Origin: Tannerellaceae bacterium
Lineage (GTDB): Bacteria; Bacteroidota; Bacteroidia; Bacteroidales; Tannerellaceae
Length of the DNA: 38,589 nt
Assembly (NCBI GenBank): GCA_031284375.1
Contig: JAISZY010000076.1
Location: 1-38,589 of the forward strand
Reading direction: 5' to 3'
Shown: piece after piece, positions 2,070 through 13,540 of the stretch
How the letters are laid out: every line of letters starts with the position of its first letter
Position numbering within the stretch: the first letter of the stretch is position 1
Program-made: the position numbers and the translations under genes
The notes under the pieces: model-generated
The model's database searches: none
Told to the model about the DNA's origin: nothing
Seen by the model: only the letters and a program-made list of their open reading frames with translations

Positions 2070-3820
2070 AGAGAATTATTTTAAGGAACATAGCGATTGT
2101 GTCGGCCATCTTTCTTGTCACCTTTTCGATTATGCTCGTCACCAATTATTTTCAGGTAAGAGAAGTCAATCCCTTGCAGACAGGAGTAATCGAGACGCTC
2201 AAGCAGATGAACGAAGAGAACGCCAATAACGTAGAACTCCAAGAACAAATCAGACAACTCGATCTCTTAGCCCGCAGAGCCTATTTTGTAAGTATGGATC
2301 ATTTAATGACGGGCGTTTATATCTTAATCGGCATGTTGCTGGTATTCGTCGTATCGCTACGCTTATATTTTGCCGGGGATCAGCATATCCCCGGCAAGCA
2401 AATACATCCGGTAGACGATTGGGCCATCAAAACGCATGCCCGCGAATATGTTAGTTGGGCAGCCGGCGGATTTGTGGTAGCGGCCTTGGTCTTCGTATTC
2501 CTCACCTCGCCCTATCTCCAAACAAAGACCGACCAACCACCCGAAACGCTGGCCGAAGCGGAAGTCGCCCCGGAAGAATTGGCCGAGCAACCCGAACCGG
2601 AGGCCGTCGTCGAACCGGAGGCGGAATTGGCCGAAGAAGAATCGCCGGCCGAAGTAGAGGTATCCAAAGTAACGCACAACTGTTTTCGGGGAAATAATTC
2701 CAACGCCATATCTTCCGCCCGGAACGTGCCCGTTCAATGGAACCTGAGTACCAAAGAAAACATTGCCTGGACAACCGACATTCCCCGGCAAGGATATAAT
2801 TCTCCCGTGATTAACGGCTCCAGGGTATTCGTCACCGGAGCCGACGAACAAGCGCGCGAACTCTACTGTTACGACCTCAACAGCGGGGAACAACGCTGGA
2901 CATTGGCCGCCAACGACATTTCCGGTTCGCCTTCTCAGATGCCCAAGACTTCCGCCGATACGGGGCTTGCCGCTTCCACCGTAGCCACAAACGGCAAGCA
3001 AGTCTGCGCCATCTTTGCCTCCGGCGATTTGATTTGCGCCGACATGGACGGCAAACGATTGTGGGCAAAAAACCTCGGCGTGCCCGACAATCATTACGGA
3101 TATGCTTCCTCGCTCTTAGTGTTCGGAAACTTACTCATTGTACAATACGACAACCTTAATTCTCCCCGTCTGATGGCTTTGGATATGGCCACCGGCGCCG
3201 AACGTTGGAATAAGGCGAGAACAGACAAGATTACCTGGAGTTCGCCCATCATTGCCTACGTAAACAACCAACCGCAATTGGTTCTGATGAGCAACCCGGC
3301 CATCACGGCTTATAATCCCAACAACGGCGAACAATACTGGCGGGTAGAAGGTCTGAGCGGCGAAGTAGCCTCCAGTCCTTGCAGCGCCGGGGGACTTGTA
3401 TTCGGAGCCAGCGAATATGCCGCCCTGATAGCCGTAGACGCCACAACGGGTCAGACGCTATGGCAGGCCAATGATTTTCTGCCCGAAGTATCGTCGCCGG
3501 TTGCTACGGCCGAGCATGTGTATTTAGCTACGAGCTATGGCGTCTTAGCCTGTTATGACGCAAAGACGGGCGAGTTGAAACAGTCGCACGAACTGAATAC
3601 GGAGTTTTACTCTTCGCCCGTCATTACGGAGGGAAAGCTTTATGTGTTCAGCAACAGCGGCCGGATGTACATTTATTCTGCCAACAACGATTTCCGGTTG
3701 CTTTATTCCTTCGAGACCGGTCAGCCTACCTTTGCCACTCCGGCTTTCACGGACGGGAAGATTATTGTTCGCACGCAAAACTCCCTGTATTGTGTTACCA
3801 ATTCATCCGTACATTCATGA
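2066..3820 (+). CDS. Membrane-anchored PQQ-binding-like (WD-like) beta-propeller protein
   Basis: ORF 584 aa; N-terminal TM helices; acidic P/E-rich linker; repeated blades of the type DLNSGEQRW / NPNNGEQYW / DATTGQTLW; ATGA overlap with upstream gene. Confidence 0.85.
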   Translation: MKRIILRNIAIVSAIFLVTFSIMLVTNYFQVREVNPLQTGVIETLKQMNEENANNVELQEQIRQLDLLARRAYFVSMDHLMTGVYILIGMLLVFVVSLRLYFAGDQHIPGKQIHPVDDWAIKTHAREYVSWAAGGFVVAALVFVFLTSPYLQTKTDQPPETLAEAEVAPEELAEQPEPEAVVEPEAELAEEESPAEVEVSKVTHNCFRGNNSNAISSARNVPVQWNLSTKENIAWTTDIPRQGYNSPVINGSRVFVTGADEQARELYCYDLNSGEQRWTLAANDISGSPSQMPKTSADTGLAASTVATNGKQVCAIFASGDLICADMDGKRLWAKNLGVPDNHYGYASSLLVFGNLLIVQYDNLNSPRLMALDMATGAERWNKARTDKITWSSPIIAYVNNQPQLVLMSNPAITAYNPNNGEQYWRVEGLSGEVASSPCSAGGLVFGASEYAALIAVDATTGQTLWQANDFLPEVSSPVATAEHVYLATSYGVLACYDAKTGELKQSHELNTEFYSSPVITEGKLYVFSNSGRMYIYSANNDFRLLYSFETGQPTFATPAFTDGKIIVRTQNSLYCVTNSSVHS

Positions 3821-9659: not shown

Positions 9660-11645
9660 TTACTGACTTATCACCCGCGAACGGAGGTGAGGATTGACCG
9701 GAACAGACATCGTGCAGGGCGCAACGGTTATGGATATTCTTTTCCGTTCGCTCGGCTTGTTCTCGCAAATCCCGTTGCCCGATACGCTTACGTAGAACTC
9801 CGTAGAGCTGGACAAGGCGGGCGTGGTATAGCTTGCTCCCGTATGGAACGCCGTTTCCGCAGCGTTTTGAGTGGTGTACCATTTAAAGACGGGATTGGTT
9901 ATGGTGGTAGTGGAGACCGTAAGGGTGGTGGCGCTTCCCGTGCACACCTCGACAACGCCGCTCACGTTGATGTCCGAAGCTTGTGCCGGCTTGTCTATCC
10001 AGATGTAGCCGGTGTAGAGCGAATCGACGGCGGCGCCGGAGTAACGTACCCGCATGGTGATGGAATCTTTTCCGCAAGGGAACAACGAAGCGGGAAAGGT
10101 AAGGGTGTTGTTGATGTTCGTGTTCTCCGTCACGCCGGTATAAACGGCGTCGTGGATAAGCCAGGAAACGCTGGTGAAGGCTCGTTCCAGCGTACGCTTT
10201 ACGGTGATATTGTCGGTAGGCGCGAAGGTGTGCGTAGCCGGGTCGGTGGCCGAGTAATACGTATCGTTATAAGGCTGCGTCTTGGTAGTGATGGTAAAGT
10301 AGTTTTGCAGATTAAAGGCGCCGGAGCCGGCCGAGTAGATATACGTTTCCGCATTTCCATACCCCGTCATATAGGCGATAAACCCGGCGGAATTGATGAG
10401 TTCTATCATTACATTGTCCGTGTTTGGATATTGCCGCGAAGCAATCACATAGTTCGGATTGGATGTATTGGTATAGAACGTGAGCGTGGGCGTCGTTACC
10501 ACCCCGCTGCGTGTTTCCCGGATAATCATATTCGGCTGAGCGCCGGCCGGTATCATAATATCCAATTGATGTAGGGTGATGTAACTGCTTCCCGTGGCGA
10601 CAAAAGGCGTAATCACCGCATGGGTGACACGCTGTTCTATGGAACTCCACCATTTAATGGTCGGGGCATAGCCTAAAAGATGATTTACGATGATGGGTTT
10701 ATCGGAAGTAAGCATCACGGGCGTTGTTGCGTTATTAACATGTACGGTCGTATCAAGCCAGAAGGCATTTGTATCGTGACGATTGAGGGGAATCGTACTT
10801 GTGGTAGCTCCCACTTTTTTTGTCACCGTAGTAGCATTTTCCAAGGCCACAATCACCACTTTGTCTTTTGTGTTGCCGGCCGCGTTGTATGTATTCTCTA
10901 CGCTTAAATTCCATAGGAAAAAATTCTTTCCGGCCGTAGCAGTAGGATAAATTTGCTCGTAATTATGGTCGCAACCTCCCGATGTTACTGGGTTGCCACA
11001 CCTACAACTACTAAAAACGGCCACATTATAATTTGACTCTACCGTATAACCTGTCAAATCGGCGGATACAACATAACTATATACCGGATTGGACGTGTTG
11101 GTAGCCTGATCCGAAACGACTGCCGTTCCTGCCGCATTGCGGATGGTAAAGATGGTACCGGCAGTGGGCGCTATAACAGTGATGGAATTATAAGAGCCGG
11201 TATTGCCAATCACGGTATAGTCCGTTCCCCACGTTGCTACGGGCAATACGGTTGTGGCATCCGTTGTATTTTGATACATATTGAGTGCATACACGCCGAT
11301 ATTTTGGGTAGAGGTTATGTGCAACATCAAACGGGATGCTCCGGTCGTCGTGCTCGTGGTATAGCATTTGCTTTTATCCACATCCCTTGTATATACCCCC
11401 GGCGTATACTGTACATTATTGTCCAAGTAGGTACCATCTCCGTATTGAGCGGTGATGCGGCAAGTTGTCGCCACAACATAACGTATTTGACAAATATTAG
11501 TGGTGCTGCCATTGTTCGATGTAAAGGTAACATAGAAATCCGTTCCCTCCGTGGCGCTGTCTTGTGCTCGGGCGGAGAGGATACAAAGGCAGAAGGAGAG
11601 AATTGTCCACAGAACGATTTTCAGGGAGGAATGAGTAGGCATCAT
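9660..11645 (-). CDS. Secreted IgGFc-binding-like N-terminal domain protein with C-terminal Ig-like region
   Basis: ORF 661 aa; signal peptide; TEGTDFYVTFTSNNG opening typical of IgGFc-binding N-terminal domains; Ig-like VCTGSATTLTVSTTTITNPVFKWYTT segment. Confidence 0.65.
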   Translation of the reverse strand: MMPTHSSLKIVLWTILSFCLCILSARAQDSATEGTDFYVTFTSNNGSTTNICQIRYVVATTCRITAQYGDGTYLDNNVQYTPGVYTRDVDKSKCYTTSTTTGASRLMLHITSTQNIGVYALNMYQNTTDATTVLPVATWGTDYTVIGNTGSYNSITVIAPTAGTIFTIRNAAGTAVVSDQATNTSNPVYSYVVSADLTGYTVESNYNVAVFSSCRCGNPVTSGGCDHNYEQIYPTATAGKNFFLWNLSVENTYNAAGNTKDKVVIVALENATTVTKKVGATTSTIPLNRHDTNAFWLDTTVHVNNATTPVMLTSDKPIIVNHLLGYAPTIKWWSSIEQRVTHAVITPFVATGSSYITLHQLDIMIPAGAQPNMIIRETRSGVVTTPTLTFYTNTSNPNYVIASRQYPNTDNVMIELINSAGFIAYMTGYGNAETYIYSAGSGAFNLQNYFTITTKTQPYNDTYYSATDPATHTFAPTDNITVKRTLERAFTSVSWLIHDAVYTGVTENTNINNTLTFPASLFPCGKDSITMRVRYSGAAVDSLYTGYIWIDKPAQASDINVSGVVEVCTGSATTLTVSTTTITNPVFKWYTTQNAAETAFHTGASYTTPALSSSTEFYVSVSGNGICENKPSERKRISITVAPCTMSVPVNPHLRSRVISQ

Positions 11646-12082
11646 GGTTGTTTGCTATAAACGGTGGATACTTGGTAGATAAAAGGAGGCACTATGCCCA
11701 AAAGCCATTGCTGGCGGAAGTATAGCATATTGTCCGTTATTTTGTATTCGACGCGGATGGGAGCGGCGGTGAAGGGGATTGAGATTTGGTTTCCCGTCCG
11801 TTCGTATAGTCCGTGATGGCCGCATCCGCAATTCTTGTCCGAGCCGGAAAGGATGAGGGTATCAGCCCTAAACTCCAGCGTTTGAGACAGCATATCGGCC
11901 AATTCTTCTTTTACCGTTTCGACGGCAACTTCTATGGTATCGGCGCCGGTGATTTTTGTTACAGCGACGCTTTCCAGCGTCCAGATTCCTTCCAATGGAA
12001 GAGAGGATTGTGCGTGTGCCGAACCGATAGTTGCGCAGCAGAAAAATGTAGCAAATAATGTAGCAAATAACTTGTTTGTCAT
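11642..12082 (-). CDS. Hypothetical secreted protein (lipocalin-like size and layout)
   Basis: Likely start at MTNKLFATLFATFFCCATIGSAHAQ (12082) rather than 12133; ATGA overlap with the downstream gene. Confidence 0.65.
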   Translation of the reverse strand: MTNKLFATLFATFFCCATIGSAHAQSSLPLEGIWTLESVAVTKITGADTIEVAVETVKEELADMLSQTLEFRADTLILSGSDKNCGCGHHGLYERTGNQISIPFTAAPIRVEYKITDNMLYFRQQWLLGIVPPFIYQVSTVYSKQP

Positions 12083-12124
12083 CTTTATTAAATTAAATGA
12101 TAAGTTGTTAGAGCGATATTTATA

Positions 12125-12158
12125 GTGTTGCAATTAAACCTTCGTTTAAATGCAACAC
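12125..12158. promoter_or_regulatory. 34-bp imperfect palindrome, copy 1
   Basis: GTGTTGCAATTAAACCTTCGTTTAAATGCAACAC; abuts a minus-strand TACATTTG (12158-12165) resembling the Bacteroidota -7 box. Confidence 0.75.
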
Positions 12159-12231
12159 AAATGTAGTAGAAAAAAACTAATATATATCAATAAAAGTCAG
12201 GATACTACAATTGTTTTTTTTCATCATTATA

Positions 12232-12265
12232 GTGTTGTATTTAAACGAACGTTTAAATGCAACAC
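12232..12265. promoter_or_regulatory. 34-bp near-perfect palindrome, copy 2
   Basis: GTGTTGTATTTAAACGAACGTTTAAATGCAACAC; 107 bp from copy 1. Confidence 0.75.
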
Positions 12266-12337
12266 ATACCCTCCTATTTTTCCGGATTTTTGAACCACTA
12301 AAGACGGCGCCGTTGAGAAGGCGCACGTATATATGCA

Positions 12338-12367
12338 CGTAGAGACGCAAGGATTTGCGTCTCTACG
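12338..12367. repeat. Perfect 13-bp stem hairpin CGTAGAGACGCAA-ggat-TTGCGTCTCTACG
   Basis: Direct reading; resembles widely dispersed GTAGAGACGC-type hairpin repeats and lies 3' of the minus-strand acyltransferase gene. Confidence 0.8.
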
Positions 12368-12424
12368 GTTGTGTATATTCTTCGCTCGTTCGGTATCGAG
12401 AGAACTACAAAGTTGTATACTATT

Positions 12425-13540
12425 TTATTGAAATTTCCTTAACCATTTTCTTACCGGAATATCGTACCATCTCATGGCGACGTACGAAAGCGCAAGCACA
12501 GCCACAAAAACGGCGTAAGGCGTCCAGCCCGCTTCGGTAAAGGTGTTCTTCGCCTCCGAGTTCCAAGCCGTATGCACGTAGCAGAGCGGATAATTAACAA
12601 GATAGATCGGATAGGACATATCGCCCAGGAACTTGCACAGTTGAGAAGTAAACTTCCCTTTCACCCGTCCGCCCGCACCCACGGCTACAATCAGGGGAAA
12701 GACAAGAAGGATAATGGCCGCCTCGTACAATCCGTTTGCCCACAACGATTCGGGCCCTCCTATCCTCGGTACGGAAAGCACGCCTACAAGCAGCAGACTA
12801 CACCACAAAAAGGCTTGCCGTATACGAATCACTTTGCCCAAGCGATACAGGAGCAGGCCGGCAAAGAAGGGATACATGAGCCGTGTAAATCCTATACGCA
12901 TGTTATTCGCGTCGATCGACCAGCCTCCTATCACGTCGCCCTGTGTGAGCGTAACATACAGCGTGGCGCAGGCGGCAAGCGAAACCAATATCGCGAGCGC
13001 CACCTTAGTAAATTTCCTTGCAAAGAGGGCATAAAACACGTTGGCAAAATACTCGAACGCCAGCGTCCAGATGGGCGCATCCAGCGTATACATCTCCTGC
13101 CACCCCCGGATGTCTACCGACGGAGGCGTGGGTATCATCAGCATACCCAGCACGGCATAGAGCAATACTTTCCACAGCGGCACGGCGCTCACAAGGGGAA
13201 AGACTTCCGATGCGCCGAAATAGAACAGCACAACGCCAAGCAACGTACCGAAAACAACCATCGGGTGAAGCCTGATGATGCGTCGCTTCAAAAAACCGCC
13301 TACGCTCATCCTGCCCCAACGCTCGTCGTACGCATATCCGATAACGAAGCCGGACAGGACAAAGAAGAAATCGACCGCCAGGTAGGCATGATTAAGCAGT
13401 TGGTCGAACTTGCCTGTGGGACTTGAAACATAATACGCCTCAAGTACATGGAATCCAAGTACCATGATTGCCGCCACTCCGCGTAGTCCGTCCAATATCT
13501 CGTAATGGGGCTTTGTTTGTGATAGTTCGTTTGTTTTCAT
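12425..13540 (-). CDS. Acyltransferase family 3 (OafA-like) membrane protein
   Basis: ORF 371 aa; LDGLRGVAAIMVLGFHVLE; YLAVDFFFVLSGFVIGYAYDERW; multiple TM segments. Confidence 0.9.
   Translation of the reverse strand: MKTNELSQTKPHYEILDGLRGVAAIMVLGFHVLEAYYVSSPTGKFDQLLNHAYLAVDFFFVLSGFVIGYAYDERWGRMSVGGFLKRRIIRLHPMVVFGTLLGVVLFYFGASEVFPLVSAVPLWKVLLYAVLGMLMIPTPPSVDIRGWQEMYTLDAPIWTLAFEYFANVFYALFARKFTKVALAILVSLAACATLYVTLTQGDVIGGWSIDANNMRIGFTRLMYPFFAGLLLYRLGKVIRIRQAFLWCSLLLVGVLSVPRIGGPESLWANGLYEAAIILLVFPLIVAVGAGGRVKGKFTSQLCKFLGDMSYPIYLVNYPLCYVHTAWNSEAKNTFTEAGWTPYAVFVAVLALSYVAMRWYDIPVRKWLRKFQ

Follow-up and report, generated by a model that had tools for sequence, protein, structure and literature searches.

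The stretch at positions 12125-12265 is very probably an invertible promoter of the Mpi kind, a phase-variation switch of the surface-protein operon that runs on the minus strand from 12082 to 9660. The window, meaning the whole 38,589-nt stretch of DNA analysed here, belongs to a draft genome (G000) of 3.17 Mb in 271 contigs, 84% complete. The original prediction had offered two accounts of this locus, an invertible promoter and a looping operator pair, and the first is supported by inverted site pairs, matched cores, a −7 element at a fixed distance, promoters that point both ways, two Mpi-family invertases and palindromic contig ends. The features of the locus are as follows.

9660..11645, minus strand: second gene of the operon, encoding a 661-aa secreted protein with IgGFc_binding (PF17517) and Ig_7 (PF19081) matches
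11642..12082, minus strand: first gene of the controlled operon, encoding a 146-aa secreted protein with no Pfam or NCBIfam match
12125..12158, plus strand: gene-proximal recombination site, with outer arm GTGTTGCAATTAAACC, central TT at 12141-12142 and inner arm CGTTTAAATGCAACAC
12141..12249, no strand: segment predicted to invert by exchange at the central dinucleotides, from site symmetry, matched 2-bp cores and the family alignment
12158..12165, minus strand: −7 promoter element TACATTTG(T), consensus TANNTTTGY, reading towards 12082 (ON orientation)
12188..12190, minus strand: candidate −33 element (TTG) located 22 nt upstream of the −7 box, weaker than the TTTGG of sister loci
12188..12208, minus strand: conserved block up to and including the −33 element, here GTAGTATCCTGACTTTTATTG; sister consensus approximately TATTxTCCTGATTTTTATTTGG
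12232..12265, minus strand: gene-distal recombination site, inverted relative to the proximal one, with central AA at 12248-12249 on the plus strand; its reverse complement is GTGTTGCATTTAAACGTTCGTTTAAATACAACAC
12338..12367, plus strand: terminator-like hairpin past the distal site, a perfect palindrome with a 13-bp stem (CGTAGAGACGCAAGGATTTGCGTCTCTACG) and a weak T-tail; putative function
12425..13540, minus strand: Acyltransferase-3 gene on the distal side, convergent

The two 34-bp palindromes lie exactly where they had been predicted, with starts 107 bp apart. Copy 1 matches the reverse complement of copy 2 at 31/34 positions and its direct sequence at 29/34, reproducing the earlier scores, and the direct repeat reaches 40 nt once the shared TTATA flank is counted. 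Each copy is itself largely palindromic (28/34 and 30/34, respectively). No further copy of the 34-mer was found in the window, where 0 matches are expected from 100 dinucleotide shuffles. The resemblance to Mpi sites also holds: the distal site, which reads AAACGTTCGTTTAA in reverse complement, contains ARACGTTCGTN and GTTCGTTTAA, the published cores of Mpi-type sites in Bacteroides fragilis and B. intestinalis (PMC8375218). The window thus carries an inverted repeat pair with the core that marks Mpi-type sites. In the proximal site one core position is occupied by C (AAACCTTCGTTTAA), a feature shared by the gene-side sites at most sister loci of its arm type (type A). The proximal site is identical to the one at C41:206-239.

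A wider search for 34-bp sites, which the original prediction had recommended, revealed a dispersed and mostly paired family. Pattern searches allowing up to 3 mismatches, whose counts are a lower bound, returned at least 13 complete pairs in G000, on different contigs and nearly all inverted about a central TT/AA, while the reversed-pattern control gave 0 matches over the same genome. Eight pairs have type-A arms (the window, C41, C145, C7, C269, C105, C143 and C77) and five have different, type-B arms (C222, C82, C136, C118 and C205); within the pairs of G000 the sites are 96-197 bp apart. For seven type-A pairs a target gene could be identified, and in every one of them the outer arm on the gene side is AATTAA(A/T)CC. 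The exact type-A site pattern had 0 matches in GTDB r220 contigs, a set from which the window's own genome or close ones may be absent. A generic switch pattern applied to 100 relatives gave few matches outside the genus, and its reversed control also gave some.

Serine recombinases such as Hin and the resolvases demand a matching 2-bp core in both partners. The central dinucleotide does match within pairs; usually, on a given strand, one site reads TT and its partner AA. Two pairs have AT on both sites instead of TT, namely G000:C118 (22701-22849) and, in the genus-mate G003, C96 (3213/3407; region 3213-3440). As AT is self-complementary, these pairs are not expected to recombine with TT-core loci, and in principle deletion is open to them as well. 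Lone sites were seen near contig ends in G000 (C79:7557 and C120:4040) and in the genus-mate G002 (C119:65 and 4006, C120:30); they have inner sequence in common and lack the −7 box. The 4-kb contig of G002 bounded by inverted sites raises the possibility of a larger invertible gene cassette.

The segment between the sites carries a predicted promoter of the Bacteroidales type, for which the consensus is −33 TTTG / −7 TANNTTTGY (PMC8748976). In the window the −7 element is perfect and stands at the position that is fixed across the family, with an imperfect −33 element (TTG, at 22 nt). The −7-like element had been said to abut copy 1, and it was found to do so on the minus strand at 12165-12158, where it shares one base with the site (the last G of the element and the first base of copy 1). 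We scored 16 pairs for TAnnTTTGY (12 from G000 and 4 from G002, a set that does not include C205): 15 have exactly one match, on a single strand, and the sixteenth (C136) has a near match, TACTTTTGG, at the corresponding place. From the last G of the box to the centre of the downstream site the distance is 16 bp in the type-A pairs and at C222, and 17 bp at C82 and C118. The background rate of TAnnTTTGY in the window is only 3e-4 per strand-base, and this placement is therefore not due to chance. At the C205 pair, a −7 box was sought and none was found. The sister consensus of the −33 block, at 3 mismatches, has matches in this genome only inside invertible segments, and the type-A switches thus resemble copies of a single promoter cassette; the window copy has diverged from the consensus by more than 3 mismatches. 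At two separate G002 loci, C40:25481 and C78:15423, the promoter segments are nearly the same, as though one had overwritten the other. Matches in a sigma-70 promoter scan did not exceed the chance level, which is what a promoter of the Bacteroidales type should give, and Rfam gave no match over 11500-12700.

In the assembly, the predicted promoter of the window switch is directed at 12082-9660, the ON state. The promoter also faces the adjoining gene at C269, C222 and C118, and it points away from the gene at C41, C145, C7, C105 and C143. 'Away' may in some cases mean towards another gene, since C145, C82 and G002:C110 are flanked by genes on both sides. The clearest comparison is between C41 and C269, where ECF-sigma genes that are 83% identical, with homologous leaders, have opposite promoters (OFF and ON, respectively). 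ECF sigma genes lie directly behind the switches at G000:C41 and C269 (by family model) and at G002:C40 (by eye). At G002:C110:21677-21807 the switch stands between two divergent SusC-like genes, and is possibly an either/or selector rather than an on/off switch.

Traces of both orientations were found at two contig ends. The start of C77 in G000 repeats, in inverted orientation, the flank on the far side of the switch (68/68, with one indel in a G homopolymer run), and the end of C121 in G002 is an inverted duplication around its switch (97/99), whereas the same comparison at 11 internal switches gave 12-24 matching positions of 68. Since reads of both orientations yield an assembly path of flank, segment and flank, ends of this kind suggest such reads, and the ends of C77 and C121 are as expected if both orientations occur at these loci, which are other than the window. 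Palindromic contig ends could in principle also come from assembly error or from true long inverted repeats. The window locus is mid-contig and assembled in a single orientation. The C121 switch precedes a SusC gene whose product is 89.6% identical to the SusC at C7.

Mpi-like serine invertases, which it had been proposed to look for genome-wide, are present. G000 has two serine recombinases of invertase size, on C1 (8174-8761) and C189, and both exceed the curated cut-off of the NCBIfam Mpi 'master DNA invertase' equivalog NF009949 (336 and 304 vs. 272 bits). They are 57% identical and fall in separate clades, and residues 1-191 of the C1 protein can be aligned to a DNA invertase of known structure in the PDB (E 6e-17). 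The nearest relative of the C1 invertase is a syntenic protein of G002 (91% identity), and G002 is the only relative with type-A arms; G003 and G009 have invertases at 75-76% and TGTCTA-type arms. The C1/G002 pair differs from other invertases in the C-terminal helix region, and comparison of these sequences suggests, as a lead, that the site arms and the DNA-binding part of the invertase have changed together. Either invertase, C189 or C1, could act on the type-B sites. We tentatively consider it possible that there are two parallel Mpi invertase/site systems with a common AAACGTTCGTTT core, each with its own outer arms (TGTYRCA vs. TGTGTA/TGTATA/TGTCTA) and its own invertase, with arms and helix-turn-helix co-changed between species of this genus (G000/G002 vs. 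G003/G009) and with the AT-core pairs as private switches. The C189 invertase gene adjoins a gene for a large, C10-type peptidase-like protein.

We propose that both inverted 34-bp sites are bound by a serine invertase, for which the Mpi-family protein of C1:8174-8761 is the most likely candidate, and that this enzyme would cut at the central TT/AA dinucleotides and invert the roughly 107 bp between the sites (12142-12248). The segment would carry a single Bacteroidales-type promoter (−33 / TACATTTG-T), with the transcript expected to start within the proximal site. In the assembled orientation this promoter would transcribe 12082-9660, giving the small secreted protein and the IgGFc_binding/Ig_7 surface protein. 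In the inverted orientation it would read into the hairpin and antisense to the convergent gene, and the operon would be off; as the Acyltransferase-3 gene is convergent, the OFF promoter has no nearby sense gene. The hairpin at 12338-12367 may end transcription from the OFF promoter, or may be a dispersed repeat.

Conservation of the palindromes in relatives, on which both original accounts had been made to depend, holds in part. The orthologous operon of G003 has its own switch upstream, with the promoter facing away. A site pair was sought upstream of the orthologous operon in G002, G009 and G030 and not found, and the switch is therefore not conserved at this operon in all relatives. In G002 a promoter is retained at a similar position, together with a degenerate palindrome, and in G009 and G030 the promoter, TATATTTG, is fixed. 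Paralogues of the operon lie behind switches at G000:C82, G003:C96 and G003:C123, and an Ig_7 protein lies behind the C118 switch. With the orthologue and paralogues thus placed, the IgGFc_binding/Ig_7 class appears to have come repeatedly under switch control.

In the alternative account, a dimeric repressor, TetR-like or of another family, would bind the palindromes as a pair of operators and loop the roughly 10 helical turns of DNA between them, in front of the operon. This account draws on the dyad symmetry of the sites and on the 107-bp spacing of the window, which is close to 10 turns. Over all pairs, however, the spacing runs from 96 to 211 bp (besides the window: 96, 97, 106, 115, 129, 156, 172, 186, 197 and 211), without helical phasing or a common period, and the promoter points away from the gene at about half of the loci. 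Nor would an operator need the inversion of the central dinucleotide that almost all pairs show, and looping leaves the pairing, the fixed place of the promoter, the invertases and the occurrence of both junctions at two contig ends unexplained. We consider looping operators highly improbable and reject them on spacing and promoter direction.

Two other explanations retain the switch and change its state or its enzyme. The window copy might once have been invertible and now be locked with its promoter ON, as the 3/34 differences between its sites, the single assembled orientation and the relic-like orthologue of G002 would allow. This is unlikely given that the proximal site is identical to one at C41, that the distal site keeps an intact core and arms, and that differences within pairs are equally large at sister loci. 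It is also rather unlikely that the enzyme running the switch is not C1 but the other Mpi-family invertase (C189) or a tyrosine recombinase, even though the genome has two Mpi-family genes and eight tyrosine-recombinase matches. The layout of the sites, symmetric around a 2-bp core that matches between partners, is that of serine recombinases, and G002, which shares the arms, has the C1 orthologue alone past E 1e-30 in a genome that is about 84% complete.

A switch inverted by a C1-type serine invertase is of a kind already known, that of the Mpi-type invertible promoters, and what is new is this member and the less usual targets of the family (IgGFc/Ig-like proteins, ECF sigma factors and SusC/D). 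The locus resembles the Mpi (FinA) promoters of B. fragilis in its equivalog invertase, the ARACGTTCGTN core and the TAnnTTTG promoter within the segment. There, one enzyme acts on many distant promoters, mainly at capsule loci; here, there are at least 13 pairs and two invertases, each site is a 34-bp palindrome whose arms are species-specific, the spacing is about 100-200 bp, and among the targets seen are SusC/D, ECF sigma factors, IgGFc/Ig_7 proteins and an acyltransferase. The capsule promoters PVR7-12 of B. intestinalis APC919/174 likewise have GTTCGTTTAA repeats and Mpi homologues, and their transcription starts in the proximal repeat, as we predict here, but they have segments of 183-186 bp, drive capsule operons and were described by the 10-bp repeat alone (PMC8375218). 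In the Tsr0667/Tsr19 regions of B. fragilis (the SusC/D shufflon and a large capsule locus), promoters or genes of SusC/D and surface loci are also inverted (PMC4747536), but by tyrosine recombinases, another class of enzyme. Hin, Gin and Pin share the small serine recombinase and the inverted sites with a central 2-bp core, and act on one target, in contrast to the many dispersed targets seen here.

Globally, these data extend Mpi-type phase variation from the capsule loci of human-gut Bacteroides to a genome-wide family in a Tannerellaceae genus that is apparently uncultured and possibly from the insect (termite) gut, where switches stand in front of genes for nutrient uptake, ECF sigma factors and IgGFc/Ig-like surface proteins. 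With a switch placed before an ECF sigma factor, a single inversion could move a whole regulon. The arms, which vary by species around a constant core, form a natural data set on site choice by serine invertases.
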